Part shown: piece by piece, positions 15,230-47,555 of the stretch | Numbering within the stretch: the first letter of the stretch is position 1 | How the letters are laid out: each line of letters starts with the position of its first letter | Origin: Buxus sempervirens | Taxonomy: Eukaryota; Streptophyta; Magnoliopsida; Buxales; Buxaceae | DNA: 64,000 nucleotides | Assembly (NCBI GenBank): GCA_947561395.2 | Contig: OX387185.1 | Coordinates: 46,448,602 to 46,512,601, forward strand | Direction: 5' to 3' | Translations under genes and position numbers: made by a program | Notes under the pieces: generated by a model | The model's database searches: none | What the model saw: only the letters and a program-made list of their open reading frames with translations | Told to the model about the DNA's origin: nothing

Positions 15230-15711
15230 ATGACTTGCCATTGTGGATTCTATCAACTTTTGAAGTAAGCTGCAAAAGTCATTTTATAGTGTAGATAAAG
15301 CTGATTGCCTAGCAAGGTATTTGATGTAGCTTCATACGCCATCTCTCACTTCTTCCCCAGAAGGATCTCTTACGGTAGGGTTTCATTGTTGTGTGATAGC
15401 TGTAACATTTTTGTTCAATTAGGGTAGCTGGATGTTTTATGCTTAAGTTGGTATCATTGGTAAAGAGACAGGCTGACGTCCGCCCCTGTTGGTTTTGGAT
15501 GAGCATTGTAATTTTTCCCCTGTATACAACTTTGGTACCATTACCTGGTGACAGTCTTCCGTAAAAACTGACACTTGTTGCGGCGACATTTTAATGTTTG
15601 GGTTTGAATTCAGATGTCTGATTTTCCCTCTGGGGGCATTCGTTTCTTTTATTCCATTCTTGCGGTACTTCATAGCAGAGGAAGGAGGCAGATATTCTCA
15701 GAAATGAGGAA
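15230..15711 (+). other. 3' untranslated region of the ZCCHC8-like gene and short spacer
   Basis: After the TGA at 15227-15229 there is a non-coding, AT-moderate stretch up to the target duplication of the MULE. No clear poly(A) signal stood out, so the transcript end is not fixed. Confidence 0.5.
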
Positions 15712-15720
15712 GAATGATTG

Positions 15721-15880
15721 CAATATCTGCACTCGTTCGTGAACCCCGCATGGATGCGCGCTGTGTGTCCACAAAAAAAGGCGCCCAATACCTATGACGA
15801 AAACTAATCTCACGGTGAGCCCCCTTAACGGCATTTCACCATTTTCTCTCTCTTGTCGTTTTCACCACATTGCCTCTTTT
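15721..15880 (+). repeat. left terminal inverted repeat of the large MULE
   Basis: It starts CAATATCTGCACTCGTTCG. It is followed by three near-copies of a 27-32 bp unit (AAGCAGAACCTG... at 15933-16005), which lie just inside the repeat. It probably acts as the promoter of the rightward companion gene, as Mutator TIRs do. Confidence 0.85.
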
Positions 15881-17072
15881 CATTTCAGCTTCTTCCAAAA
15901 CCAAAAAGCATTTGTCTTCACCATTCTCTCCAAGCAGAACCTGTTTCGTCTTCCCTCCAAGCAGAACCCTGCTTCGTCTTTCCTCCAACTAGAACCTGCT
16001 TCGTTTTCTCCATTCGTCTCCGAACTCTGTGGCTAAGCTTTCGGCTGCACAAGGCAAGCCCCGTTAACGGCGTCATTTGTTGGGGATTTCTTTGTTCAAT
16101 CAAAACGGCCTCTTCACCAACTCTGTCGCTATAACCCAGGTTCGTGCTTCCCCTGCATTGCTTTGCTTTCTTTCTCTATTAATGCAGAGTTTCGACTATA
16201 TTATTCAAGTTTTCTCTTAAATGTAAGAGTTGCAAGCTATAGCATCCTTTTCATCAAAAAAAAATTTTTTTTTTCGATGCTTGGTTTTTTGAAATATCAA
16301 TAGGCTATACCCAAATGGTATATCTGAAATTTCAGTTAAAATGATAGAAATCCATGTGGATTTGTTATCAAATCTATGATTTTGGAACTTTCCCCAAAAT
16401 GTCTTGATCGATTGGTTGAAAAATTTCGTCTTCCCCAAAATGTTTTCTCTTTCAATGTTTCTGGGGGAAGAATGTCCTTGGCTACCTTGTATTTTTTATT
16501 TATTTGTCTATTTAATATTCATTGATTGGTTGCTAGGTTCCGAAATAGAGATTGATGATTTGGGGTTATCGATCCCTTCGTCGCTCCTTCTCACCCTGAG
16601 TTCCTGAGTTGTGTTGCTACTTGCTAAAGGTGTGTAAAGATTCTTTTTAGATTCCTTGTTTATAATCTTTTTATTTCTTTCAAGTTGTTAATCTCTTTGT
16701 TTACTGTTGCTTTTAATCGTTGTTTTGATGGGTTTTTGTTTCTATGTGGTGTTTATTCGTTGTTTCTGCTATCGTTGCTGGATGTCGGTTAGTGGGTTGT
16801 TGTCAATGATGGTTTTGGATGAATTGGGTGTTTGATTGTTCTTGTCTAACTGTTGCGATTATATGATTCGAGTTGTGATCATTGATCATTAATTTGGAAG
16901 AAGGTAGCTGGTTGACTTAGATTTTCTGCGTTTACTTGAAAATCTTGATTATTCCATGATCAGGGTTTCTAATTTTGTGGCTCTTCGTAGGTAAGGGTAC
17001 TTTGTCTGTTTGGATTCTTTCCATTTTGCTGATATTGATCTTGTGGGTGTATTTTTTTTCCCAGAATTTTAG

Positions 17073-17528
17073 TTGTTTTGTTTGTCGAAATATAACAATG
17101 TACTATGCCGATGTGGACGAAAGTGCATTATAAGAATATCCGAGACCTTAACTCATTCAAATAAGTTGTTTTATACATGTGCGAGGAAGGCCATGGTTAG
17201 TATCCTCCTTTGTAGTTTGAATTATATTTTTGTTAATTTATATATAATAACATATCAATTAATTGTTGATTTGCAACCTTCAGCTTCATCACTTGCGTGT
17301 GACTTTTTTCAATGGTGTCACCCCATTGCAACCACAACTGATGATGGCTCAAATGAAAATATTACTTCAGTGAGGATTCCGGAAATTAGTTCACGATTGA
17401 ACTATATTGAGGAGAAAGTGCACGAGCTTCAGGCTCTTCAGAAGCATGTCGATGAGTTAAACGTATTTCTAAGAGCAGCAGTTGTAGTGATTGTAGTTAT
17501 TGTTATTTCAAAAATTATGTCCTTTTAA
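17073..17528 (+). CDS. GRF-type zinc finger, coiled-coil, membrane-anchored MULE companion protein (first exon missing)
   Basis: The frame reads CRCGRKCIIRISE, then KLFYTCARKA, then CDFFQWC, the Cys spacing and aromatic FYxC / CxFFxW pattern of zf-GRF domains. It continues with a coiled-coil helix (about 30 residues, EEKVHELQALQKHVDELN) and ends with a C-terminal hydrophobic segment (AAVVVIVVIVISKIM). A phase-consistent intron can be drawn at 17200-17283 (A|GTATCC to TTCAG). The frame is also open through it, so retention would still give a protein. There is no ATG at the 5' end; an acceptor TTTTAG at 17072 implies an upstream exon that I could not place. The gene lies inside the MULE, convergent to the transposase. 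Function unknown; nucleic-acid binding is inferred. Confidence 0.6.
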   Translation: MFCLSKYNNVLCRCGRKCIIRISETLTHSNKLFYTCARKAMVSILLCSLNYIFVNLYIITYQLIVDLQPSASSLACDFFQWCHPIATTTDDGSNENITSVRIPEISSRLNYIEEKVHELQALQKHVDELNVFLRAAVVVIVVIVISKIMSF

Positions 17529-17963
17529 CCTGTATATCTATGTGATCACTATTGTTACAAGCCCGTCAGTTTGAGAATGTCCACTTATATTTGCTCTACT
17601 CTACTCCCCTCTCATATTGAATCCAGAGATTGTTGCAACTATTTTGTTCTTGAGTATGAGATACTAGCTCTAAAATTTGGTAATTTATAAATGCGTACTT
17701 AGAGTTAACATGTTACTTAACTCTATGGGTTTTCTGAGTAAACTCGAATTGGTAGGTCATTATGATTGTTGTATCTTTAGTTCCTGTTTTCTTGCTTCAT
17801 TGTATTGGATTCCTGCTTTTCTTGATTCTTACATGGAAGAATTTCCACATAAATGTGTTTTTTGTTTTCAAATTTGTTCTGTAATTGTGTGAATGCTTTT
17901 CCCATTTGGGGTTATTGATTAAGTTAATCAGTTTTTGCAGCCGGAATTACCACCATTAAATCA

Positions 17964-18047
17964 TTATTAACGAAGAAAAGAAGTATTCTTCGTTATTAAA
18001 ACATCTTATTAACGAAGAAAAGAAGTATTCTTCGTTATTAAAACATC
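17964..18047 (+). repeat. two tandem copies of a 42-bp hairpin-forming unit
   Basis: The 42-bp units 17964-18005 and 18006-18047 are identical. Each contains AACGAAGAA and TTCTTCGTT around a short loop, so each folds into a hairpin. They lie downstream of the GRF gene, between the two convergent genes of the MULE, where a transcription end would be expected. Confidence 0.85.
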
Positions 18048-18049
18048 TA

Positions 18050-20700
18050 TGTCAAATTGAATTCGCCTATAACATTACGTACTGGTGCATCATTTTACAC
18101 GGGGATTGATTCTACAAGGAATGACACATGCAATTTGATCCTTGCTACATCTACAGATCCCCCAAGTCTAATTCGTGGTTCTTACGTACAAGGTTCATTT
18201 GCTGTTGGCCTTGACCTTCCATAATTTGAATCTACTCTCATGGGACTTCATTGGTCATTTGGTTGACGAATGCAATTCCGCTCATCAAACGAAAGAACTT
18301 CACCATTCTCACTACTTTCTGTCTCGGAAAAGTACGAACTTTTAATACCTTGTACCTGTGTGAATGTCATGAATTATATATTTTTGAGAGGCTCGCTTTC
18401 TTGGTAAGACGCATCATGAGGAGAAAACCTAGTGAGAGATAATGGATGGTTTTACATAACGGCTTCTTTTGCAAATCCCACTTGCGGAATCTACTTCCAC
18501 TTAGGTTTTACTTCTCATATTATGTTGCAAACCCAAACAGATTGAAGGATTCTCTTTGACATTTTTATTTCTTGTCTGTATGTAAATAAAAGAAAAGCGA
18601 GAGAACGCTAATAAGGGAGTGCAAGACTAGGCTCGAGATCAATACGTGGCTTCTTACCAACTTTCTAATCTTAAATACTGTAATGTTTAATAAATTAATA
18701 CATTCGAAACTAGATCTATATAACTTAAAGCTAGTAGTTTGTAACCTGCCCTGCCAACTTGCTTGCATTTATATGATTAACAAAATCGATGAATGAAATA
18801 GTTTCAGACTTCGTACCACGACACGATTTAGCCGCGCTTGAGCATGGCATGGCATGTGCGCACCTGGTAAATTTAGCCATGCCTGAGCATGGCATCCTTG
18901 CTCCAACATGATGTTTCTAGTTTTTACATGCCAGTTAACCTTCAAACAGAAAGCGAGCCACGATCCCTGAAATGAATACAACATGAAAGACCAATCCATA
19001 CAGGAGTAGGTTGTACCGGCAAGCATTCTTTTAACATATTACTGGTGATGAACTGGTAATCAGAAATAAATGTGCAATTTTCTGTTCCGAGATTGTTTAA
19101 GGTTGAACCACATTTGACATCCTGAAATGAATTCAATCCATGATTTGAAACATTTATAAATTTAGCAAATTTAAGTAACATTCCAACAGTTAATGAGAAC
19201 CTACACACCATATTCAATAAACTTCCAGCACAACTAGAAGAAATCATATGTAAATAAGACATTGACAAATGCTACTCATACAATACCAATTAAGAGGACT
19301 TCAACTTGGTCTTTCTTCTTTCAATTATTATCAAAGAAAAATCAAAGAAATCTAATTAGTTCAGACCACCATATCATTTTTCTGAAATAAATCTAATGCT
19401 TTTGTGTGTTGCAAGATAATATAAATGAAAATTATCTCCTTTGTCCCACAGCTACAAAATACTGAAAATTATTCTGCACTTTCCCTGAAGTCAACTCATA
19501 TGAGCAACGCATGAAGAAAAATCACCTAAGGCAAGTCAGTTCAAGTAATAACATTAGTGTTTGCTTATACATCATAGAACCACTACTCCAAGAAAAACAT
19601 TGAACACTCATTCAACAGCTACATGGAATCAGGCACATGTAATATATATTTTTCCTACCATTCAGGTTTCTGAAATAGCGATATGGGCCGTTATATGGGA
19701 GAACCAAAACCTTAATCCAAGATGCATGGAAGAGAAAACCAACCATAAGATATATGGGTATGCCTATCCGTGTGTCTTCAATGATTAGGAACTTGAGCAA
19801 AAGTTCTGCAAAAATTCTTATATCCACACATTTAGTTTAAAATATTTGGTGTTTTTTTAGATCTCGGTACTTAGTTCTCTTGTTTATTCTAGGTATTCCT
19901 TATTTAAGTGTCATGGAGGACCTTTATTTAAGCACTTTTTAAAGTGCTTTGTGGTAGTGGGCACATACTGTTTTACAATCATTGCCTACCCGAACACAAA
20001 TGAGAGCAAAGCTGCATCTAATGCATTACTAATTTCTGCATTGAGAAGATAGGATACCTCCTAAGCATCTGGATAAAATGAATTCAAAAATATCAAAGTG
20101 GGAATATTATTTATGTTGATGATCACTATATTTCAAGAAAGCCTCCAATATCAATTTAACTTCAACCAAAAATAAATAAATCTGGTCAGCAGATTACCCC
20201 TTCAAAAATCCAACACTCTCAACTTGATGGAGTCGAGTTCTTTTAAGTGGCAAGAATGATGCACAAAGAGCCTTTGGGCCTAACTCATGAGTTCAAGAGT
20301 CCCAAGCTAGCAAGAAGATTCATCATGCAATCTACACCAAATCCTAATTAGAATTCTAGAAGCCTTTTAGAAATCTGGACGTGATTTGCATCAAAATGTT
20401 TTGGAAAAAAAAATACTTTCTCCCAGCCCATTAAAATGATCGTAAAGATGCATCCAGCCCATTAAATGTTTTAGAACCTAGGAAAACATTTTCAAAAAGG
20501 AAGCACCAGCAGCTTTCAATTATTTCAAGTATGAACATACAACTGAAACCTAATGCAAGCTTGATGTCTCAAAATTGGAAGTGGACTATTGTAAAAGTAC
20601 TCAATTGGCAATTGTTACCAACTGGAGCTAGAAAATTGGAAGTGGACTATTCAAAACAGTTCCTTTTTACAACGTAAAGACCAAGGTTAATAAACTACCA
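18050..20700. other. MULE interior without recognised genes
   Basis: This 2.6-kb stretch lies between the convergent gene ends. It contains a short imperfect direct repeat (GAGCATGGCATGG units near 18836-18894) and no coding match. It may hold further exons or untranslated sequence of either gene, or captured non-coding DNA. Confidence 0.5.
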
Positions 20701-20942
20701 AGTTCAAAGCATGTTCACGCATTTAGATAGCTATGTAAATAAATGAAAGCTAACTGGATGGCAGAATCAATACCATGATTATTGACACTACTCAAGCAAG
20801 TGGGTGCACACTGAGTACTAGTGATGTGGCCTTCCAAGGGAAGAATCTGCACAGATTGTAAGTATTGAAACTCATAAATCTTGACAAGCTCATTGAGAAC
20901 ACCGACATCAAGGCACAAGTATGCTAACTTCATAGCTCTTAC

Positions 20943-23860
20943 CTTTGAGACTTTGTGAACTAGGCCTAGCAGAAGATGGGGAGTAGTGATTGGACACCCC
21001 TGCTTCTTGAAGCATCTGCACCATACTAGGTGAACCTCTGTGCTGATTGGTACCAAGTAAAAAGGAATGCAAATGGTGTATAGGGACCTGTGTATGCAAA
21101 AAAACCAAAGGACAGTGTTAGACAAATTGGAGGAGGGTGGATGAATTACTAAAAAATATATGATTCATTAGACATACCAGTGGACTGTTATGATAAGGAA
21201 ACATGTGATAGGCTTCAGTTTGGGGATGAATGACTGGCATTAAAAATTGAGTAGGTGGCATGATATTCTTATCCCCACCACCTTCAATGTTTTGTGGAAC
21301 CTGTGAAGGAAAAAAACCGAAACATTCTATGAGTATTAAAATAGATCTGAGATGGTCAATAAATTACTAAAAGTGAGATATCAACTAGAAAACAAACCAT
21401 TTGACGATTAGGATCAGGAAATGTAGCACATGGTTCATTTGACGAAGAAAACATGCGTGCTGATGGAGGAATCGCAAGTGATCGAGATTGACTAGAGGGC
21501 ACCGTGTCCTTATCACCACTACTTTCATTATTTTTTTTTGGCCTTTTTTTCCGAATTGCTTGAGTCAAGGCATCCACTTTTCTACGAACACTCATACCCG
21601 CACGTTTGGATCTTTCCTTAACATTGACTCCTTTTGCATTCTCTAATCGTTTTTGAGACATAGAAACATCTTCACTAGTATTAATTGCATCAAACAGCTG
21701 TACCCCACTAATCTCCTGAGAGTCAAACATTTGCTCATTTTCACAACTACCAACCTCTTCTACCACATCAATATTTGCTGCATCATCAGTATACTCATCA
21801 ATGAGGGGTCGTCCTCCATCAAATACAGTCTCCTCATTTTCAAATGTTTCAGTGTTATGCTCATTGTCATTAACGGTTTCAACGTCCTTTGGAAGCTCTT
21901 GAAAAACAGTTTCTTTCACAATCTTCTCCACTTCATTCATTGTCTTTTCAGCTACTTGCATAACATAATCAGTTGCTTTTTGGCATACAGCTGATTTAGA
22001 TGCAAGCTGAACCAAGGTTGAACAAACACAGGAGTATCGATTAGAGATTTTACTGATCTCACTATTTGCACTTGAAGCATGTAGGGACGTGATGCCTTGT
22101 AATCCTTCTTTCGCATCTCTTCTCCACCTTTTAAGGATGTACTTTTCTGGGATTTTTTCAATATCCTTGTGATGGAAAATGAAGAAAATATGCCTACACA
22201 AAATTCCTGCAAACTCGAACTTCTTACAACTGCATTGCACATCCCCATTTCCACCATTATATGTAACAGTGTGCACCTGCTTGATTCTTTGAATCCTATT
22301 AACAACCTTAAATATCTCAACATCCCCAGTTTTTGAAGAGGCCTGAAGCTTGTACGACCAAATATCCGTTGCTTCTTTTTCAAGCTTGTTATAAACTGTA
22401 GGAGTGTACAACTTGCTTGCTTGTATAAACATTGGCTGGATTAGACGAGGTTCCTTCCTCCTTAACATCATATTTTTGTCACTTGCTAACTCGATATATC
22501 TATGCTTTGCCACAACAACATCAATTTGGGTCAAAAACCGCATCATACTCTTCTGCCTGTTCAAAGCATTTTTTATAGATGCATTCATGCTCTCTGATAC
22601 CTGGGTGCTAAGCATATCCGCACAAAAATGATGTCGCCCATACGCCAAGGACCACTTCTCCCTTTCCTTATATTTTCTATCCAACCACTCATTATCAGAA
22701 AGACCATAACTGTCAATCATGTTTTGCCATGCCTCCTCGAACTCAGAATCAGTTTCGTACGTGTATATGCAATCCCTGAATGCTTCTTTAAAACCCTTAA
22801 GAGTGCGAAACTGATTACTCAGATGCTTTACAGCATTTTGATAAAAATGCCATATGCAATTTCGGTGCACTGTTCGAGGCAATACTGCACATATGGCTTT
22901 CGCCATTGTCTGATCCTGATCTGTGATAATGGTTTGCGGCTCTTTCCCATGCATGCATTTCACAAAAGTCTTGAATAACCAAGAGAAGGCATCACAGCTT
23001 TCTTCGTACTGAAGAGCAGCACCAAAAATGACAGTCTGCTTATGATGATTTAATCCTACAAACAACGCAAGTGGCCGATTTTTTGTGTTAGTCTTGAATG
23101 TTGTATCAAAACTAACAACATCACCAAAGTAAAGATAGTCCGTAACCATCTGGCCATCTGCCCAAAAAATATTTGTTATCATATCATCCTCATCCATATC
23201 AATGGCATGGAAAAATGCCCGATCACTGCAAAGTTTATCCTGAAAATAAGATGCAAGAGCACCACTGTCTCCTTTTTGCATTTGTATCTTATTTCTCGTA
23301 CGCAAGTAGTTACCATAATCTTCACGTACTAATCCTACATTTTCAATCCCCCCAGCTTGTGTGTTCAACAGTTCCATACCAGCTTTTGGAGTTAATCCGT
23401 CACGATCAACAATATCAACATGAGCTGCTATAGAAGGTGTAATTCTTCTTTGTGACCTTAACCGATGACTCATGCTTGGGGGAAGCATCTCATGGTTATG
23501 ACTCTCATTAAAATCATGTATAAAGTACTTCCCATTTCCATCATTCAATCGAACTTTAATTAAAGCCTTGCATCCACACCTTGTTTGTGATGACAGCCTA
23601 CTTTGAATATCAGAAACCTTCTTCTTAATCCCTTCTTTCGAACATAAGTATAGTTTCCCAACTATCCCACCGCCAGCATCATGCTTCTCCTTACCTTTGC
23701 GTACGCTAAAACCAGCACTCTTACCATATGCATTGTAAAAATCATACACCTCATTTAATGAATCAAATTCCATCCCCACTTTAGGAATAAACACTGCGTC
23801 AACATTAGGAACAACTCTCACCTCAGCACCCACCTCATCGGTATTATTTTCAGTTGCCAT
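20943..23860 (-). CDS. FAR1-type MULE transposase
   Basis: Three exons on the - strand: 23860-21398, 21300-21178 and 21087-20943, with consistent phases. A further short terminal exon is likely (candidate acceptor at 20754), or read-through gives a stop soon after 20943. Residues about 41-128 form the FAR1 DNA-binding domain (C73, C95/C97, H121, H123). The MULE catalytic domain has D252 (FDTTF), D314 (ITDQD) and E423 (VSESMN), the expected DDE triad. A SWIM zinc finger follows (C543, C545, C555, H557). The acidic/basic tail resembles FHY3/FAR1-related proteins. Exon 1 is open for 821 codons. An acceptor at 23920-23922 (AATTCCAG) upstream of the ATG implies a spliced 5' leader. Placement inside TIRs shows this is a transposase and not a domesticated FRS gene. 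Confidence 0.88.
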
Positions 23861-24669
23861 ATTTTCTCAAAATGTCCTTAAGTACCCAAGTTAACTTCCT
23901 CTTCTTATATGCTTCCTCCCTGGAATTGACAAAGTGTAGATTTCCATTAATATCATATCGAACAAGGCAAATAACCCCTTCAATTAACCGAGGAACAAAT
24001 GAATTTCAAATTTAGAAAGCAATTGAAATCTACACATCTTTATTGTATCTCCTCCAATATTCCATCCTACCGATTCCAGATAAAAGGAAAGAGGAATTTG
24101 AAATGACTAACTTTGCAATTTTCTCATTCTGGTGGGAGGAATGTACCCCACTTTGTTCAAGTGTAGTTTTGTTAGCAAGATGAACTGGGTTGATTTCTAA
24201 TCTGTTTGGGCTGAAGTTAAACTAAAATCAGATGACCGAAATTTAACCGAGTGCAAATTGAACCTAAAACAATGAACTTGATCCTATCTGAAATTCAGTT
24301 TCATGGTTTACAAATGCCAAGTTATGCATATTTTATCTTAAAAAAAAAGGTTAGAGAGTTAGTTTCGTAGGTGAATTTTGTTCTAATAGTGACTCGGAGG
24401 AGAACATTCGAGAACAGAGATCTGGTATTAATTGAACGGAAGCAAGAGGTTAGAGGGTTAGTTTCCTAGGTGAATTTTGTTCCTTCGGAGGAGAACATTC
24501 AGTTTTGTTTTTGGTTTGAAATTTTAGCTTTCAATTCGGTTTGGTTCAGTTTTCAGTAACCGTAACCAACTGTATTTGGTTTGGTTTAGGTGTGAATAGT
24601 AAACCAAACTGAACCTAGTTAATTTATACCCCCTAGTAGAGATAAGACCAAAAGAAGTCAAAATTTCAC
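23861..24669 (-). other. leader region of the MULE transposase
   Basis: The stretch contains the candidate 5' leader exon end (23861-23919) and an imperfect direct repeat at about 24351-24500, with the GGTGAATTTTGTTC and CGGAGGAGAACATTC blocks each present twice. No coding match was found. Confidence 0.45.
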
Positions 24670-24942
24670 CTTGACTAAAGTCCCAACATACTCCAGAACC
24701 TGTGCTGCTAGCTTCCCAGAAGCTCTCATGCACTCAATCCCCTTCTCATCATGCACCTCAGGTCCACTTAAAATTCCAGGTGCTTGCTGAGAATCAACAT
24801 AAGAAGGTCTAGGTATATGATCTGGAACAGGTTGATGAGGAGACACTTTTCCTGGCTTTAGATGTTTCCGTTTAATATTTGGAAGGTCATCCTGAGATCT
24901 GTTAGTTTCAATAGATGTAAAAGTGGCCAAATTCACATGCAT
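24670..24942 (-). pseudogene. captured methionine aminopeptidase 1D-like exon fragment
   Basis: The - strand frame contains LKPGKVSPHQPVPDHIPRP, PGILSGPEVHDEKGIECMRA and SGKLAAQVLEY, then GTLVK. This closely follows the N-terminal part of plant organellar methionine aminopeptidases (MAP1C/1D type), just before the catalytic domain. It ends at AGTCAAG|GTGAAA, a usable splice donor at the position where the host gene has an exon end. No metal-binding residues are included. It lies inside the MULE on the same strand as, and upstream of, the transposase, so it could be part of a chimeric leader transcript. This is a captured fragment and not a working enzyme gene. Confidence 0.75.
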
Positions 24943-25129
24943 AGTCTCAACAATGTAAACAAGGTATGTACATGTGCAGGTATGACAACCTCAAATCCAA
25001 AGGTCTCAAAACCTACAATTACAAGCTTCTCATCCATGTTCCAAGACCAAACAGACCCGCAGAGGGCCACATGCATGGCTGAGTCACTGTGCCATCACAG
25101 ATACATGGTGCAAAGAACATAAGTTAAGG

Positions 25130-25990
25130 AACTAAACAGAAGCAAATAAAAAAGAAGTAAAAAGAAACTTGATGCAATAGATCTCTGAGATTATTTTCCA
25201 TGGTGATGATTACTATAACCTAAGTTAAAGTTTCTTTCGTGGTGCAACTGATCCAAGAATTCGACAAAAGGTTTCACAAATCATCATGCAAGACAAATAA
25301 GATGGACAATAACCTCTATGTCAAGTAATAATCTAAGAGAACAAATTAGTGCCTCTTTATCAGCCTTTCGGAGATGGATTAGGTTGCTCCTTTGTAGTAT
25401 ATGGTGCATATGGATGAGAGGAACAAAGAACATGTAAGAACATTATAATTTCCTGCGCCACTTATATACCTAAATATAGAAGTTACTTTTGAGCTCTTGC
25501 TTAAAGAAGTTTATTAGCATACCTTTTATTGAATAAGAGATCCGCTAATCCAGAAAATGTTCTAGCCAGCTACATTGATACATGTCTTGTTCCTACTTGG
25601 TAGAATTAAAACAGGTCAAAAATTGCAAAATATATACTGGGAGATGACAACAAAAGATAATATAAGATTTCATGGTATAGCCAAATTCAAAACTATTTAG
25701 GGAAAACCGTTCTTCGGATAGAAAAGAAGATATGAAAATTAAGAAACTCCAGGGCCATATCAATTGAGATCCCAACTGATGACATGGGAACTTCAAGCAA
25801 TTCCTGACATCTACATGGAAATTTTAGTCGTCAATCTGAGATTATATAGCCCTAACTTCAGATTCTACAATTTCATCAGTATATTCCAACCCACCGAAAA
25901 AGAAATCAATTTATTGTAAACAATGCTTGCAAATGACTCATTGTGCAGACGAATGCTTGCAGACAAATGACTCACCGAAAAAGAAACAAT
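25130..25990. other. MULE interior, nothing recognised
   Basis: AT-rich sequence without a coding match. Short repeats of GACGAATGCTTGCAGAC and AATGACTCACCGAAAAAG occur at 25895-26020, just before the polygalacturonase fragment. Confidence 0.5.
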
Positions 25991-25999
25991 GCTTGCAGA

Positions 26000-26252
26000 C
26001 GAATGCCTTGTGCAGACGAATGGTTTGGAGAAGACGAAGCAGGGCTTCGATAAAACTTTGAGAATCGATTGTTTCAGAGAAATCTCAGAAGCTCGGATCG
26101 CAACTCGCTCAAATCTGACTTATACGGAAGGGATCGAGTCCCTGATTCAACTCCCTCGATTTCCAGGGTTTAGAAACCGAGTCAACCCCAAAAGGGTTGT
26201 TTCTGTAGATGATTATGGGGCGGTAGGAGATGGTCTCAATGACGATACCCAG
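26000..26252 (+). pseudogene. captured polygalacturonase (GH28) first-exon fragment
   Basis: The + strand frame ends SLIQLPRFPGFRNRVNPKR then VVSVDDYGAVGDGLNDDTQ. The VDDYGAVGDGxxDDTQ motif marks the start of the mature pectin-lyase-like fold of plant polygalacturonases. The exon stops at ACCCAG|GTATGG, the position of an intron in that family. Only the N-terminal segment is present, without the catalytic Asp residues, so it cannot be an active enzyme. It sits immediately inside the right TIR, reading towards the end of the element. Confidence 0.7.
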
Positions 26253-26289
26253 GTATGGAGCTTAAGTCGAATGGTTTGGAGTAGTCGTA

Positions 26290-26444
26290 TGGTTTGGTGA
26301 AAACGAAGAGAGAGGGAGAACGGTCAAGACGCCGTTAACGGGAGATTAGTTTCGAGCATTCGTTTGGGCGCATTTTTTTTTTTGACACGCGGCGCGCATC
26401 CAAGCGAGGTTCACGAACGGAGTGAAGATATAGGAAGCGGGTTG
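26290..26444 (-). repeat. right terminal inverted repeat of the large MULE
   Basis: Read on the - strand it begins CAACCCGCTTCCTATATCTT and then follows the left TIR, with a poly(A/T) tract between the GCGTGTC and GCGCCCAA blocks. It probably carries the promoter of the transposase. The GAATGATTG duplication follows immediately. Confidence 0.85.
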
Positions 26445-26524
26445 GAATGATTGAACCCGAACCATCTTTGTTAAGAAGCCTTAAACATTTCTGAGAATCA
26501 ATACAAGGGAGAACAGTTTGAAAG

Positions 26525-28270: not shown

Positions 28271-29102
28271 TTTTGAATCAGTCCTTTTGACATACGTCAT
28301 TTATGTGGAAGAGGTCGAATCTTGAGGTGCTTGCTTGGTCCCACATTAACTGAATAATGGGTGCATTTGCAGGTGTTGTAATTGTCTGGTCTCCCAAAAC
28401 CGTACCTGGGGATCTAGAGAGTGGTCACACTCAGCAAACACAGGCCTATCTGTAAATCAATCTGGAAATGATTTAAGTCCAAATTCTGAATCCAACAATT
28501 CCAACCCTGATGCAGAGAGAATGAAGGTATTCTCTGGTTATGTTGTCACTCTGTACAAAAATTCGGATGCAGTAAAAGGGCCACCCGAGTAAGGGACAAG
28601 AGTGATGGTAATGTTGGCTGGGTAGTGTTGGGGATGCACCTCATTGTTTCCAGTGCAAGTCAGATTAGGCAGTCAAGCATTTGCTTTCTCTCCCTACCCC
28701 ACAAGCCACAAGAAAAAGAAATATCAAGAACTTTGTCTCCTTAGATTCCATTATTCCGTTCCAGGAGTCTTTCTCCATCTCTCCATCCCCATTGAGCCTC
28801 ATCTTTCTTGTTCTTGTCTCTATTCTTTTTTCCATGTCTCTGTTCTTTTTACCCTTTTTTATGCAGTTTGGTGGGGCTGCTCAGCTTCCTTTTTTAAGTG
28901 GTCTTAGCAACATTTCTCAGGAGTCAGGACCATGGCAGGCTAAAAAGAAAAGACTAGGAGGAAAGAATAAACCAGATAATGAGTGAGAGAGAGCCCACAT
29001 ATCCACAAAAGAGACCAAGACACTAAGATAGAATCTCTTGATCTTTTGTATTCTTTTGACCCATCTTTAAGGAGTTCCAACAACGTCTCTTTACTTTCAC
29101 AG

Positions 29103-29834
29103 ATGAAGACATTCATGGTTAAGAACCCCCTTAACTCCTCCTCCAAGAGGCACTTCCACTGGAGAAGGAAACTTGAGGATGAAGAGGATGAGGAAGAGGT
29201 TCTAATGGCTAACTCTTCCTCACATGCGCCACCACCAATGGGTTCCTCATCGGTGCCAAAGAAAAAACTTCCCGTTGTAACAGTTTCTAAGTTCCGGTCT
29301 CTGCTGACCGCCATTGCCAGGCACCGAACACGCCTCTCATCTGGTCTTGGCACCAGAGTGGTGGGTACCCTTTTCGGGTACCGACGTGGGCATGTGCACT
29401 TCGCGTTTCAAGAGGACCCCAAGACGAATCCGTTCTTTCTGATCGAATTTGCCACCCCTACAAGCGGATTGGTTCGAGAAATGGCATCTGGGTTGGTTCG
29501 GATTACGTTGGAGTGTGATAAGAAGGTGGAGAAGAAAGGAGGAAAATTGTTCGAGGAGCCTCTTTGGAGAACATTCTGCAATGGTAAGAAGTATGGGTTC
29601 GCAATGAAGCGTGAATGCAGGCCTGAGGAGTGGAAGGTGTTGAAGGTTTTGGAACCAGTTTCAATGGGAGCTGGGGTGTTGCCAGGGAATGGAGCAGGGT
29701 CCGAGGGTGAGCTTATGTACATGAGAGCTAAGTTCGAGAGGATTGTGGGATCTAAAGACTCCGAGGCTTTGTACATGATGAATCCAGATGGTAATGGAGG
29801 ACCTGAGCTGAGCATTTATCTGCTTAGAGTTTGA
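29103..29834 (+). CDS. MIZU-KUSSEI1-like (DUF617) protein
   Basis: An intronless frame of 243 residues from the ATG at 29103, preceded by CTTTCACAG. An upstream in-frame extension has no ATG. After a variable, acidic N-terminus comes KLPVVTVSKFRSLL (about 55-68). The DUF617 domain follows to the C-terminus (GTRVVGTLFGYRRGHVHFAF, FFLIEFA, LVREMASGLVRITLEC, PLWRTFCNGKKYGFA, EGELMYMRAKFERIVGS, DSEALYMMNPDG, ELSIYLLRV). This is the full usual length. The Arabidopsis founder MIZ1 is needed for root hydrotropism and acts at the ER; which paralogue this is cannot be told from sequence alone. The upstream 400 bp is CT-rich (28640-28900), as in plant 5' leaders. Confidence 0.9.
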   Translation: MKTFMVKNPLNSSSKRHFHWRRKLEDEEDEEEVLMANSSSHAPPPMGSSSVPKKKLPVVTVSKFRSLLTAIARHRTRLSSGLGTRVVGTLFGYRRGHVHFAFQEDPKTNPFFLIEFATPTSGLVREMASGLVRITLECDKKVEKKGGKLFEEPLWRTFCNGKKYGFAMKRECRPEEWKVLKVLEPVSMGAGVLPGNGAGSEGELMYMRAKFERIVGSKDSEALYMMNPDGNGGPELSIYLLRV

Positions 29835-33230: not shown

Positions 33231-33612
33231 CAAGGATTATCATTCACTATTCTTTGGTATTTTTGACTGGAGTGCAGCAAGCTAAATATATTTACCTTCC
33301 CTCTTGGGGTAATTGGATAACTTCTGTACACTCTTTTTTCTGTATATAAATTTATATCCTTCATTATTGATAAAAAAGAAAAATGCTTGAAAACATGGCT
33401 TTTCTCCATTTGAAAACAATTAGGATCTCTTGAGAGAGAGAGAATTCTGCATAGAAACCTGAAATCAATTATTCAACTCATGGAAGTGAATAGAATTGCA
33501 GAAGCAGTTCAAGGCATAGGACAATATCATTTTCTTAAAGAAGCCCAGCAGAACTACCTAAAACTTATGCTTCACTGCATGTATCTTATTGTGGAGTGAT
33601 GTTAATAGTAGG

Positions 33613-33912
33613 TGTAGAACACCATTCTTACTAAAAGCTCAAGCTAATAGTAAGGGGTGAACTTTATATATTTAATATATTCCTTAACACTCCCCCTCAC
33701 GTGTGGGCCGGACTCAAACCCTTTTTTTAGGGGACCCATTTTAGGGAGGCCCTACACGTGAAATATTTTTTTTCTCAACGGGTGGAGTGAAGGTTTGAAC
33801 CCAGGACCTGGCACTTGCCTAAGGCTCCGATACCATGTAGAACACCATTCTTACTAAAAGCTCAAGCTAATAGTAAGGGGTGAACTTTATATATTTAATA
33901 TATTCCTTAACA
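33613..33912 (-). mobile_element. TRIM (miniature LTR element), complete copy
   Basis: A 300-bp fossil LTR-type element in miniature. It has two 77-bp terminal repeats (33613-33689 and 33836-33912), a tRNA-Met-type primer site next to one repeat and a purine-rich tract next to the other, all read on the - strand. It is flanked by GTAGG on both sides (33608-33612 and 33913-33917). It carries no protein-coding genes, as usual for TRIMs. The two repeats look identical, so the insertion is young. Confidence 0.8.
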
Positions 33913-34470: not shown

Positions 34471-37400
34471 TCACTTTGAAGGTTCAGGCTTTTGACGAGC
34501 AAATCCTGGCTGGATGGCATAATTTATGATGTGTGGTCCAATCATTAACACAAACCAGAAACATGGATATGCAAGCTGCATCAGTTGCAGAAAAAAAAAA
34601 AGAAAAGAACTCACACAGATACATAAGAGAGGAAGAGGCAGAGAGAGTGAGACTGTGAGAGAATAAAAATAATTCTAGAGGGAATCAAAGAGCATTGAAG
34701 AGAAAGAATAAAAAATAAAAAACTCTGAGGGACCATCTAATTTTTTTTTTCTTAATTTTGATAATTCATGTAAAGAAATTTTATCTTTTTTTTTTTAAAA
34801 TTTTTCTTGAGCAAGTGGGCGAAAAAACAACACAACAATCTTGGCCACAGAGAAGAGAGGGAAAAATGAAATAAAGATGTATAATATTATTATTTTTGTT
34901 CTTAGTTGAGCCAGATTGGAGTGATGACTCTTCAGTAATAAAAATGCAATAGATTATCATGGAAATTGTAATGTTTCTAAGGTAGTGTTTAAGATAAGCT
35001 AGAGTCCTTTGGAACCATACCATTGCAACCTCTCATGCTAGTTCATAATCACAACCCTAAGCAACACCCCCCCCCCCCCCCCCCCCCCCCAAAAGCACAG
35101 ACACGCACACCACCCAACCCTCCCCAGCTGATGCTTCTAAGTTGTTATATCATCTTTTGAATCACTTTCATGCGGTGTAAATGAGATCTAGTTAGCATGT
35201 GCATTAATAATGGGTGGAAGATTTAAGCTTCAGTTTTACTTGAATGATGCATGAATACAAAAGGTAGATATGCAGTGGGCTATGACCCAAGTGCTTGATA
35301 GTTTGGCATTCTTTTCAACAATGAAAGAACACAATGAATCATGCACTAAAAGCCCATATATTGCATGTTTAGGGATCATTTGATATGGTTCACATTTGAA
35401 CCATATGATCTCATAGTTATGCTCCTTTATAGATGGGTTCTTGTCTATCATTCAAAAAATGGGGAGGGAAGGATGGCAATGAAGGGAAGTAAGTATACCT
35501 GGAGAAGCATTGAAGGAGCTGCTGCAGTTTCAGTTGTGGCATGGCTTCTAGTTTTTCTTCCATTCAACATTGTAACTGATGGGCTATTTGCAGTGGTTAT
35601 GTCCCAGAAGCTACGTTTTTTTGCCGCTGGTGCTGGTGACAAAAATCGATGACTTGGGCTTTTCAACTCACCCATGGTTGATGAGTCCTTTGGTCGCAAG
35701 CTTGCCCTTGTGACTACCCTCTTCACCCCTTGACCTACCATTCCTGATGGTTTTTCGCTCTTCCGTGTTAACTCGCGGATGAAATCATCCTTCTGCTTCA
35801 GCTGCAATGCATGCTCCTTCTTCATTCTTTCCATCTCTGCCTCTAATGCCTTCACAGTCTGTCGAAGCTCTCGGACAGTCTCCTCAGTTCCCCTCTTCTT
35901 GGGTTGTGGTGTGTTGAAACAATTCCCAACCAAGATAGATCTGGCACATCGTTTCTCACTTGCTTTCCCTGAGGCGGCTGGAGGAGACAAAAGAGAGGTG
36001 ACTGAGGAGGGGGTCGGAGAGGAATTTGCTGCCAATGATTGAGCTTGGACAGTTAGCAGCTTCTGTTGCTGTCGTGCTAGTTGTACACGCAGTTCACGAT
36101 TCTCTTTCTGTAATTCCACTAACAGCTTGGCCTGATCAGTCTCAGATTCTGGTATTTCTACCACGGCATCATTTGGTTGACATGCCTGCAATAGTATCAG
36201 TTGATAAGAAATTCTAATGCTTATTTTTAGGAAACAAGGGAAGTGGGAGATGAGATGATGAACCTTTGCTCGGATCTCCTTTGCTCGATCAGCCCAATGG
36301 AGGGTGTTTTGGGTCTCACCAAATGATATATTGCTGGGGCTGATATTAGCAATCATTACAGTGTTGCATGCTCCTCCTAGAGAGTCCTTGAGGAGTTGAG
36401 TGAGCTTGGAATTTCGGTATGGGATATGCTTCTTTCCCTCAACAAGAGCATTGATGCAGCTACTCAGTGCAAGTAGGGATCTGTTGATGTTGGCACCCTC
36501 AAGTGACCTCAATGTTCTCTGGTCAGTTGCAAGGGCTCTCTCTGAACCCGCAAGATCAATCAGTGATAGCTTTCCCACACGGTTCACGATATTCATGGAA
36601 GCATCTTTCACTCTGTATTCAACTGTTACCTGGTTGTTTTAAGGCAAAGGTTATGGAAATATATTAAAATTGAATATCTTTCGGCACAAACTTCAGTCTT
36701 CGGAATGTTTTTTTCACACTAATTTTCACAAGTTTTTTTTCTTTTCCTCTCTGAAATTAAACCAAAAGTCACCCAAGTCACTGGGCATGAGTAAAAAAAC
36801 CATTAGAACTATAGTGACAATAAAATGAGCTATGTATTATGTATACACAAGGCAGAGTAGCAATTACAGATAGAAACTGGAGAACTATCAAGGACATATA
36901 TCTTCTGTTAAACTACCTGCAGAATGGCATGAGAACGGGACGAAGTCTCATTGGCACGAGTTGGTTCAGTGGTCCTGTTTTGATTTCCTTGTTGCAGCAA
37001 TGCCATTACCTGTTGAAAGCCATAAAAACAACTCTCCTCATTCCTCTAAATTTTTCCCAATACCATATAATCAAATATATGAGAGAAAGAATTACTTCAT
37101 CTGTTGAATAAGCTCGGTATTGTGTAAGGCCTGCTGCCATAATCCCCTGAAATATTTGGACCATTATTAATCGCAGTTCATCAATTATTCAAAATTATAA
37201 ACATAAAAACAAGAAACAAGATCTGCTATTAGTCCAGATTTCTTCTTATTTGCTTGGTTTATCATTTCTAGTCATCAGCTACAATGTAAACCAAAATGAA
37301 GGTCCACTTGGGGGGTTTTAGCCTACTTGAGAACAATGTATTCTAATGGTTGAACTAATGAATGCGCCATTCAAATTAGAGAACCAACCTGTTTATCTTC

Positions 37401-38680
37401 TCTGAGAACCAGAGGCCTTCCAGGGGAGAGCAGATCCCTCACTGTTTCATTATAGACCTCAAGGTAGGATAGGTGAACCACATGGTTTCCATCACAACTC
37501 CTTTGCCTGATCTTGGCAAAGAGGTCCTTAATTGCCAACACCATCACCCCTGGATTCTCCACTGTACCCAGCATTGTATAGGTCTTTCCAGCCCCTGTGG
37601 CACCGTAGCAGAATACGGAACCGTTCCTTCCTTGCAAAACTGCTTCAACAAGCTCTGCTGTTCTGAAAATTCAGATAAGACCCTAACTTTCTTAAACATT
37701 TTTGGGTATAAAATTTAATTAGAATGCACAAAGGGCAAGTCCATTAGAAGAGCACAAGATTAAATTGGGAGAAATGGATACTTTTGAGAACACTAACAGC
37801 GGTTCCGAGAGAATCAAAAGAACCCCAAATGGATAATTTTGAGAAAGTTAGTTGCAGATAAAATGGAAAAAATTTCAAGAACTCACGTCGTAGTGTAGAC
37901 TTCTTGTTGGCTAGCAGTATCAGGGAATGCGGCGTCGAAGGTGAAATGGCGTCCTCTAAGCCTTTTCAGGCGGAGGTAGTCGTTTTCTGTTGCAAACTCT
38001 GTGAGATAAACGTCCTGCCGGTTCACAACCCGGACACAAGACCGTGATCCAGCTTCTTTCTCTTTCTTGGCCATTGGACGAAGCCTCACAAAAACAAGAA
38101 TTCGACTACCCACACCAGAATTCTCTGAAATGGTCTCCATTTCCTGTGTGGGTTTAGTCCCCACAAGGCCTCTTGGTTCAGACTGAGAAGCCAAACTTCC
38201 CATTGAGAGCTTCCTCGCCACAGTAGACGAGACCACCCCCTTCCTCGGGCACGAAAACCCCAGAATCCGATCGGCCCCAATCACGTTCTCTTTCGCATCA
38301 TCTGGGATCACTGAGCTTGGTTGTGGCAACACAAAAGTCCTTGTGACTGTAGAATTAGGCATTATGTTCTCCCTCATCACCAGTTTCGGTTCCCTCTCTC
38401 TCTCTTTCTCTTCCCTTTTACAGGGACTGTGAAGCTCCACACTTGGATGGGTAGAGAAACGCCGGTCATCGGGCCTCAAAGACTGGTTCTTGAGGGCAGC
38501 TGCAGCCTGCTTTTGTTGCTCGTACAATGCAGTCAGAGCTCTCATCTTCTCCTTCAACCCGTGATGCGGATTCCGCAGCGGAGAAGGACTCACCTCCTGA
38601 TCGGTCCTCGATCGTGTTCTAGGGTTTTTATTAGACTCATCTTGGCTTCCCAAGAACTGCGACCGAGTCGAAACTGGCAT
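34471..38680 (-). CDS. KIN8A: kinesin-8 motor protein (KIN-8A type)
   Basis: Seven coding exons on the - strand: 38680-37887, 37662-37389, 37146-37096, 37009-36917, 36629-36264, 36185-35499 and 34509-34471, about 767 residues, all in phase. The N-terminal extension carries HHGLKEKMRALTALYEQQKQ. The motor starts at about 193 (RILVFVRLRPM). The P-loop GATGAGKT is at 285-292, switch I NETSSRSH at 393-400 and switch II DLAGSE at 429-434. A neck (HWADRAKEIRAK) and coiled coil (ELQKENRELRVQLARQQQK) follow, then a basic tail with SFWDITTANSPS. The last exon adds PGFARQKPEPSK after a 990-bp intron; without it, read-through at 35498 gives a different 22-residue end. Kinesin-8s move along and shorten microtubules; the exact role of KIN-8A here is family-based inference. 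Confidence 0.92.
35067..35090 (+). repeat. poly(C) tract of 24 bases
   Basis: An uninterrupted run of C inside the last intron of the kinesin gene. On the transcribed strand it is poly(G). Its length is probably unstable or poorly sequenced. Confidence 0.9.
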
Positions 38681-38719
38681 TATAAGAAAACCAGAACAGA
38701 TAGTTAAAGAAAGGCTAAG

Positions 38720-39612
38720 AAACTCCGGCTATTCAAGCATGACCTGTGATCTCTTCTAAACCCTGTTGAAGAAACTGATCAAGACACCGGAAAATTCAAA
38801 AATGTAGCCTGAAGGAACACAAATCTCGCCGGAAAATCAATACAAGTCTTGTTCGGGGAAAATAAGAAATGATACAGTAGCAGTAGTCGTAGTAGCAGAA
38901 CAGAGGAAGATTGAGAGAGATCCGGGAATTATTTCAGGAAGATCTGATCCGTTGATTGGACGGCGAACGGACGGCAAGTAGTAAAGCGGGGGAAGAGGGT
39001 TTTTGAAATCCTTGAAAGCTGGTTATAACGGTCAAAATTTGTCAGGCCCAAACGGTCGGCTTTCGAGGTAGGTCCCATTTCAATTTTTTTTTTTTTTTTG
39101 CTTTTGAAAATATCCTCTCTATTGTTTATATCCTTCTGTAGAGGGACATTGATATGGTGGGTTTGAGGCGTACCATTCTAAAGGAATATTACCCCAACTA
39201 ACCTCATCGATTCAGAGGGCCCCACCAAATGGACGGTGAAGATCAAGCCACTCAAATTTGCCATTTTACAAGTGGACGCATCTAATGCAATGGAGGAGGA
39301 GTACCCGTTATCCCCATCTCCTCAATTGCCACGTGTACAACCTGGTGTATAACAAAAGGATTCGATACAGGTTAATTCTAACACGATTTTGGTGAAACCA
39401 AACATATCGTGCATTTTAATGGGTAATGTTTTTTTTTCTTTTATTCTGGTGGAATTCAATAGTAACAATTAGTCATAGATAGTTATTAATAGAGACATTA
39501 AAGACTTAAATGGGCAGCAAATGTGATTTGTTGTATCAAAATAATAACTTTCCCAACCAGGATTCAAAATCTTGTTTTATGGTTCTTGAATGTCGAAAAC
39601 TTGTGACATACA
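38720..39612. other. 5' flank of the kinesin gene and spacer
   Basis: 38681-38990 is the likely 5' untranslated region and promoter-proximal DNA of the - strand kinesin. The rest shows no element with paired ends and no coding match. Confidence 0.5.
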
Positions 39613-40167: not shown

Positions 40168-40640
40168 CTTTTTTTTTTTGGTAAGCTCATAAAAGCAATT
40201 TTATTAAGATGTGTGTCTAAAACGGAGTACATTACAGGCTTCTTCCAACAAAATATGACAAAGATCCGCTGGTGGATGTTTTAACCAAAAACAAGAAAAT
40301 CTATCAATACAAAAATTTGCTAAGAAATCTGCTGCTCCATTGCCTTCCCTGTAAGTATGCTTGACTTCCACCACTTGAAATGAAGATAGGATATGGAAAA
40401 TAGCATCAAGTAACGGAGCAATTCGCCAAGTATATTGGTTGAAATTGTTGCTAAACCAGTCGACTTCTGAAGGAATCCAACCATTAACAGGGAGTCGCCT
40501 TCCAGAACCAGGTGAGTTACTTTGAGAAATTGAGCTAGTTTCACTGCCTCCAGGGTAGCGGTAGCCTCTGCCATTAAGGCGGAATACGCGTTGCATCTTG
40601 AAGCAATTGCAGCTAAACATCTTCCTTGACTAGAAATAAA
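40168..40640 (-). mobile_element. LINE tail (RNase H domain and poly(A)) nested in the Pack-MULE
   Basis: On the - strand it reads LMAEATATLEAVKLAQFLKV, then HLVLEGDSLLMVGFL, and in a neighbouring frame EVKHTYREGNGAADFLANFC. These are the RNase H core motifs, ending in a poly(A) (T-run at about 40170). It is 5'-truncated and frame-shifted. The last 200 bp match the copy at 28061-28270. Confidence 0.75.
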
Positions 40641-40689
40641 TAAATTAAAAATAAAAATCTCAGCTCCACTTTCTAGAATGACGTGGGGA

Positions 40690-41225
40690 GTTATGGAAAA
40701 GCCAAAAGGCCGAATTTTCTATAACTAGGGCAAAATGAAGAACGTTTTTAAATTTTCTCTTTGAAAGAAAAAGGAGAAGAAGATGAAGCCCTGAAATAGA
40801 GAAATATATATCTTTAAAACTCCCAACGGAATTATCTAAAAGACAAATGGAAGACGCCAACAAGAGAACAGATCCCACCTGAAACATGAGATGGGTCCTT
40901 GATTTCTTTCTAAGACCACCCCCAGAAGCAGCGGAATCCAAGCCAATTTCCCTGACGAGATAAACGTAAGCAAAACCCACCTTCTCCATGCTGCCTCACG
41001 ATTCTGAACCGATTACCATTGATCCGAACATCTCCACCGCCATTAAAAACATCATACAGAGCATTCAAACCCGAAAACGAGCAGCCCATCCTTGTCTGCT
41101 CCCTCTTTCTCCCCAAGACATCTTCAGCTTCTCATCTCACACACAAACACATGCTCAAATCAGGAGCCCCTTTCGATTTCGCTGCTTCTTCCAGAATTTC
41201 TCTCAGACCTTGACTATTGATGCCA
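40690..41225 (-). pseudogene. captured 5' end of an STK16-like protein kinase gene
   Basis: On the - strand, after an apparent 5' untranslated stretch, the ATG at 41089 begins MGCSFSGLNALYD, then NGGGDVRINGNRFRIVRQ, then GEGGF. This is the myristoylation/palmitoylation N-terminus and glycine-rich loop of plant serine/threonine kinases of the STK16 type. One extra T in the TTTGCTTAC region shifts the frame, after which AYVYLVREI and KDPSHVS follow the family. The exon ends at TTTCAG|GTGGGA (40879), and part of the donor-side intron follows. It lacks the catalytic domain. It was captured as genomic DNA, because intron sequence is present. Confidence 0.78.
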
Positions 41226-46885: not shown

Positions 46886-47172
46886 TGTTAAGGAATATAT
46901 TAAATATATAAAAGTTCACCCCTACTATCAGCTTAAGCTTTTAGTAGGAACGGTGTTCTATATGGTATCAAAGCCTTAGGCAAACGCCAGGTCCTGGGTT
47001 CAAACCTCCACTCCACCCGTTGAAAAAAAAAAAAATATTCCACGTGTAGGGTCTCCCTAAAATGGGTTTGAGTCCAGCCCATACGTGAGGGGGAGTGTTA
47101 AGGAATATATTAAATATACAAAGTTCACCCCCAACTATCAGCTTGAGCTTTTAGTAGGAACGGTGTTCTATA
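46886..47172 (+). mobile_element. TRIM, + strand copy in a head-to-head cluster
   Basis: A miniature LTR fossil of the same family as 33613-33912: two terminal repeats of about 77 bp (46886-46962 and 47096-47172), a tRNA-Met-type primer site and a purine tract. The two repeats differ at a few positions, so it looks older than the 33613 copy. Confidence 0.75.
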
Positions 47173-47555
47173 CACTCCCCCTCACGTGTGGGCCGAACTC
47201 AAACCCATTTTTAGGGGATCCATTTTAGGGAGGCTCAACACATGGAATATTTTTTTTCTCAACGGGTGGAGTGGAGGTTTGAACCCAGGACCTGGCGTTT
47301 GCCTAAGGCTCTGATACCATGTAGAACACCGTTCCTTCTAAAAGCTCAAGCTGATAGTAGAAGTGAACTTTATGTATTTAATATATTCCTTAACACTCCC
47401 CCTCACGTGTGGGCCGGACTCAAACCCATTTTTTAGGGAGGCCCTACACGTGGAATATTTTTGCTTAACGGGTGGAGTGAAGGTTTGAACCCAGGACCTG
47501 GCACTTGCCTAAGGCTCCGATACCATGTAGAACACCATTCTTACTAAAAGCTCAA
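47173..47555 (-). mobile_element. tandem TRIM units sharing repeats, - strand, incomplete
   Basis: Immediately abutting the + strand copy there is internal sequence (47173-47319), a terminal repeat (47320-47395), a second internal sequence (47396-47525) and a partial terminal repeat (47526-47555), all in the opposite orientation. This is a broken fossil array produced by unequal recombination or nested insertion of TRIMs. Confidence 0.7.

Follow-up and report, generated by a model that had tools for sequence, protein, structure and literature searches.

A probable FAR1/Jittery-type Mutator-like element with captured host DNA and an oppositely facing GRF zinc-ribbon frame in Buxus sempervirens

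The window analysed here, a stretch of 64,000 nucleotides from Buxus sempervirens (assembly GCA_947561395.2, contig OX387185.1, positions 46,448,602 to 46,512,601 of the forward strand), holds what we read, with a probability of about 60%, as a single plant Mutator-like element (MULE) of about 10.7 kb with the FAR1/Jittery architecture, an apparently intact transposase, captured host DNA and an oppositely facing gene for a GRF zinc-ribbon protein. The repeats, the transposase frame with its domains, the GRF domain and a fragment of a methionine aminopeptidase gene are all directly observed. In MULEs generally, a transposase binds the terminal inverted repeats (TIRs), cuts the element out and reinserts it with a 9-bp duplication of the target. 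The product of the minus-strand gene would act on the present element in this way, and the element would have taken up from its host an exon for methionine aminopeptidase, probably another from a pectin-lyase-like gene, and the GRF gene. All positions given below are those of the window.

Terminal repeats and the transposase gene

The features that delimit the element and make up its transposase gene are as follows.

15712-15720, plus strand: left copy of the 9-bp direct repeat GAATGATTG, a putative target duplication
15723-15867, plus strand: left TIR, outer arm, 145 bp
15964-16019, plus strand: left subterminal stretch, which matches the right end again
20908-21087, minus strand: transposase exon 3, modelled, phase 0, with the stop codon
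21178-21300, minus strand: transposase exon 2, modelled, phase 0
21398-23860, minus strand: transposase main exon of 821 codons with the FAR1, MULE and SWIM domains, ATG at 23860 and modelled donor at 21398
25997-26048, minus strand: right subterminal stretch, which matches the left end again (partner of 15964-16019)
26295-26431, minus strand: right TIR, outer arm, 137 bp, separated from the 9-bp repeat by 13 bp
26445-26453, plus strand: right copy of GAATGATTG, a perfect match to the left copy

An earlier note on this DNA had put the TIRs at about 150 bp; the two outer arms measure 145 and 137 bp. They are identical in 114 of the 133 ungapped aligned columns (86%), with gaps in addition, and their alignment score of 127 compares with 28 for the best of 500 shuffles; long TIRs of this kind are characteristic of the MULE superfamily. 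The subterminal pair scores 40 when aligned, and none of 500 shuffles exceeded 31. Between this pair and the right outer arm, the stretch 26060-26294 shows no similarity to the left end (as good a score came from 472 of 500 shuffles), and the right arm is thus interrupted, while further inside no inverted similarity was found between 16140-17060 and 25000-25900 (220 of 500 shuffles as good). A pattern of the TIR core, allowing up to three mismatches, matched the whole window exactly twice, at the two arms, leaving no second copy there; in a collection of prokaryote contigs the core had no exact match, a result that says little about plants. The subterminal regions also carry mirrored clusters of a motif that was picked after the fact. 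All four plus-strand copies of TTCGTCT in the window fall in 15945-16425, beside the left TIR, and four of the six copies of AGACGAA fall in 25947-26032, beside the right TIR, making these clusters possible candidates for transposase-binding sites.

The element had been described as complete and flanked by a 9-bp target duplication. The duplication itself is perfect and rare by chance, since an exact 9-mer is common to only about 0.4% of 20,000 random 30-mer pairs drawn from the window; GAATGATTG has one extra plus-strand copy in the window, at 10536. Completeness is less firm. MULEs have a duplication of 8-11 bp that abuts the TIRs, and here the TIR match ends 2 bp (left) and 13 bp (right) inside the perfect repeats, so that the ends of the element can be given only approximately (about 15721-26444). 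Both putative ends read CAA, and we would guess that an 11-bp indel could bring them into line. The hexamer AGGAAG recurs at 15707-15712, just left of the element, and at 26432-26437, directly after the right TIR arm, which could hint at an alternative boundary. Outside the 9-bp repeats, the flanks hold an exact 13-bp inverted repeat, ATTCTCAGAAATG (15694-15706 and 26486-26498). A larger element bounded by it was rejected because this inverted repeat does not exceed shuffled sequence (alignment score 26, maximum 31 in 300 shuffles).

The minus-strand frame runs for 836 codons without a stop, compared with 154 for the longest frame in 100 base shuffles, and two further in-phase modelled exons extend the transposase to 921 residues. 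On an approximate scale of splice-donor weights, the first transposase donor is weak (5.3), and a stronger one at 20942 (10.4) leaves further exons, and so another C-terminus, possible. The Pfam search covered 10 of the 14 open reading frames (ORFs) of at least 80 residues in and around the element, the remaining four overlapping the transposase exon. The transposase matches FAR1 (PF03101) at its N-terminus with 72.7 bits (cut-off 28.1), the MULE-type DDE transposase family (PF10551) with 100.8 bits (cut-off 27.6) and SWIM (PF04434) at its C-terminus with 25.7 bits (cut-off 19.6). The ZSWIM1-3 RNaseH-like family (37.9 bits) and Transposase_mut (30.9 bits) also lie above their cut-offs, and DBD_Tnp_Mut is absent among the seven Pfam families listed at E-values (E) up to 1. 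In NCBIfam only IS256 was matched, with 43.3 bits, under its cut-off of 150.

The protein contains the motifs SFDTTF (residue 250), TDQDQ (313), CIWHF (335), SESMNAS (422) and CSCKK...CRHI (543), which we take to hold the D/D/E, CxxH and SWIM residues. The claim of an exon open over 821 codons with DDE and SWIM residues is thereby borne out in its frame, its domains and its motifs, the assignment of the individual residues being tentative. This is apparently an intact DDE enzyme, which may be expressed and active. Searches of prokaryote and viral contig collections with the transposase gave 20 and 3 pattern stretches, respectively, none of which was confirmed by tblastn; these collections say little about plants.

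The GRF frame and captured host DNA

Between the same TIRs lie a plus-strand frame with a GRF domain and two fragments that resemble host enzymes.

17073-17199, plus strand: first recognisable exon of the GRF gene, opening after a TAG and without an in-frame ATG
17200-17283, plus strand: modelled 84-nt intron (GT..AG), in frame and stop-free, hand-picked to keep the frame
17284-17528, plus strand: last exon of the GRF gene, with the second half of the domain, a coiled-coil-like stretch, a hydrophobic tail and the stop codon
24658-24942, minus strand: methionine aminopeptidase fragment (best E 4e-6 in a search of PDB sequences)
26121-26252, plus strand: weak pectin-lyase/polygalacturonase-like fragment, resembling the start of the enzyme and followed by a GT donor

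The GRF frame (17073-17528) faces the transposase gene (20908-23860). Read without splicing, it reaches 24.4 bits with the Pfam GRF zinc ribbon (PF06839), below the cut-off of 25.9, and after hand splicing it reaches 31.6 bits, above the cut-off, over profile positions 1-42 of 45; the next-best family for the spliced frame, DUF730, scores 17.0 bits, below its own cut-off. By eye, the cysteines of the domain are kept and the name-giving Gly-Arg-Phe is replaced (it reads NKLF). A coiled-coil-like stretch, also recognised by eye, precedes the C-terminal tail, whose hydropathy averages 2.65 across 19 residues and suggests a membrane anchor. The second gene that the earlier note saw reading inward from the opposite TIR can therefore be retained as a frame with a GRF domain near the left end, although as a complete gene it lacks a start: no ATG stands in frame, and a TAG lies directly upstream at 17070-17072. 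Upstream of the frame, 19 donors exceed the threshold set on the donor scale and 13 in-phase combinations of ATG and donor can be formed, none of them confirmed. The candidate first exons include 15794-15814, within the left TIR, and none was chosen; the two strongest upstream donors (16630 and 16991) have no such combination. A search of PDB sequences with the GRF protein gave no GRF structure and two insignificant coiled-coil matches (E 0.93 and 0.98).

Just downstream of the GRF gene, at 17964-18047, lies a perfect 42-bp tandem duplication, each copy of which forms a hairpin with a 10-bp stem (z -4.86 as single-stranded DNA).

Captured host exon material had gone unmentioned in the earlier note. 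For the aminopeptidase fragment, the PDB search listed 28 sequences at E up to 10, and 27 of them are named methionine aminopeptidase. The last letters of the fragment are GTCAAG, and GTGAAA comes next, so that it closes at an exon-intron border with a GT donor; this points to uptake of genomic host DNA by the element. The second fragment, near the right end, sits inside the stretch 26060-26294 that does not match the left end, and is probably captured host DNA as well. Its Pfam match (E 0.025) is below the cut-off, no NCBIfam family was hit, and in the PDB search its best match was a beta-1,3-glucanase (E 3.7e-4), with the polygalacturonase ADPG2 at E 0.16. Since the element holds captured host DNA, the GRF gene may have come by capture too. 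A captured host fragment between TIRs is a mark of Pack-MULEs; the absence of an own transposase, which is another, does not apply here.

Between the aminopeptidase fragment and the start of the transposase, two direct 39-bp copies (24345-24383 and 24444-24482) are 92% identical.

Known relatives and competing explanations

Transposases of the mudrA type are not known to carry a FAR1 domain. The two convergent genes had been likened to the layout of maize MuDR, and the layout holds, as two oppositely facing frames lie within one TIR pair, just as mudrA and mudrB are described for MuDR. The transposase does not follow the comparison: it carries FAR1, and DBD_Tnp_Mut is not among its listed families, in contrast to the MuDR-type transposase of the maize element. 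The second protein appears to differ from mudrB, from which it is set apart by its Pfam naming (GRF zinc ribbon). The idea that an unrelated protein stands in the position of mudrB agrees with that naming. Its functional replacement of mudrB is made doubtful by the missing start codon, the captured exons and the Abermu elements described below.

With FAR1 at the N-terminus and SWIM at the C-terminus, the transposase resembles those of the Jittery group of plants, which have an N-terminal FAR1, a C-terminal SWIM or CCHC and TIRs of 39-292 bp. The group is tabulated with one ORF and a target site duplication (TSD) 'not indicated/8 bp' (PMC6446971), in contrast to the second frame with a GRF domain and the 9-bp repeat found here. 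CitMule, a Jittery-related element of Citrus, likewise combines FAR1, MULE and SWIM in one large exon, the first of five in the gene model, with 795-805 residues and 9-bp TSDs in three of four copies; it differs in its length of 6.8-6.9 kb, and the relevant sections of the report make no mention of a second gene (PMC4334395).

Second genes in comparable positions have been described in several other MULEs. Abermu, from barley and other plants, is a large element with TIRs of 138-145 bp, a 9-bp TSD and a transposase of 826 residues, and its types I and II carry an oppositely facing ORFR that is unrelated to mudrB and whose function is stated as unclear; unlike the present element, it was found through similarity to MURA, and FAR1 and GRF go unmentioned in the sections concerned (PMC9168764). 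Antisense ORFs named PMD occur in most of the MUDR group (Dupeyron et al., 2019; PMC6446971). Similarly, MULEs of grapevine, some of them Jittery-like, carry, next to the transposase gene, a second coding region acquired by capture, in both orientations, so that Jittery-like families break the one-ORF rule; there the region encodes a ULP protease and not a GRF zinc ribbon (PMC2528002). As the Abermu, PMD and ULP cases are already published, a convergent two-gene layout is not new. A GRF partner in a FAR1/Jittery MULE was not found among the matches listed in the open-access literature, which does not include Repbase, and it may be known elsewhere.

The explanation favoured here, a single FAR1/Jittery-type MULE with captured host DNA, has several observations weighing against it. 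The TIR homology breaks off before it reaches the 9-bp repeats, by 2 bp on the left and 13 bp on the right, so that the ends are approximate. A PDB search with the transposase, taken to E 1, gave no match, and an AlphaFold model of its 421-residue core, made without relatives, had a mean predicted local distance difference test (pLDDT) score of 34.5 and was discarded. The placement with Jittery follows from domain architecture and not from a tree. Furthermore, neither Pfam nor NCBIfam reports the aminopeptidase fragment, and the pectin-lyase-like assignment is weak. Lastly, the GRF frame still has the two halves of its zinc ribbon, an intron that is plausible, the tail and a stop codon, and in this it looks more like an entire gene than like a piece picked up at random.

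This last point bears on what the GRF gene does. It could be a real second gene whose product assists transposition or expression and which is retained for that reason, much as MURB may assist the integration of MuDR; in a likely mode, the GRF protein would bind the single-stranded DNA of intermediates formed during excision or integration, and its tail would anchor it to a membrane. Its convergent position beside the other TIR fits such a role, as do the complete zinc ribbon, tail and stop, and in published descriptions integration apparently depends on MURB. Against it, the frame has no start codon, the name-giving residues are replaced, the PDB search gave no GRF structure, and Abermu elements that lack the convergent gene seem to have moved recently, being polymorphic in rice ('data not shown' in that report; PMC9168764), so that we regard a helper as possible but doubtful. 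The missing start codon, the other captured pieces and the apparent mobility of Abermu without its convergent gene lead us to favour cargo over a required helper. More speculative, and in our view rather unlikely, is a FAR1/Jittery lineage whose dedicated second gene encodes a tail-anchored GRF protein, as a counterpart to mudrB of independent origin.

The locus could instead be composite, with ends from different elements or with the plus-strand gene in an insertion nested in the MULE. The TIRs are 86% identical in aligned columns only and stop short of the 9-bp repeats, and the two AGGAAG copies make another boundary conceivable; yet the TIR match stands far above shuffles, neither arm is more than 13 bp away from a 9-bp repeat seldom expected by chance, and the window has no further copies of the terminal repeat, all of which makes such an origin distinctly improbable. 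The minus-strand gene could also be a host gene, a domesticated relative of FAR1 (FRS) that merely sits between repeats. FAR1, MULE and SWIM follow one another in FRS proteins as well (PMC2528002), but enclosure by long TIRs and a 9-bp direct repeat, together with catalytic motifs that look intact, leaves this explanation with very little probability.

mudrB is described as having no known biochemistry. A GRF partner, whose fold can be recognised as one that binds nucleic acids, would provide a testable guess at the role of second genes in MULEs. If a dedicated-helper lineage were true, several MULE lineages would have recruited different helpers in the same convergent position, and part of the many small plant proteins of the GRF type would be transposon helpers. 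If the GRF gene proves to be cargo, the element is still an autonomous-looking MULE of the FAR1 type that carries captured host exons.

Neighbouring genes and repeats

DUF617, a family not known outside plants, is represented in the window by one gene, and a kinesin gene also lies near the element.

28983-29831: DUF617 gene (235 bits)
35451-38728: kinesin gene

A fragment with an RVT_3 (RNase H-like) domain is located on the minus strand at 40323-40718. The stretches 46886-47555 and 33612-33912 hold inverted and direct repeats that are 80-91% identical and probably belong to another repeat family.

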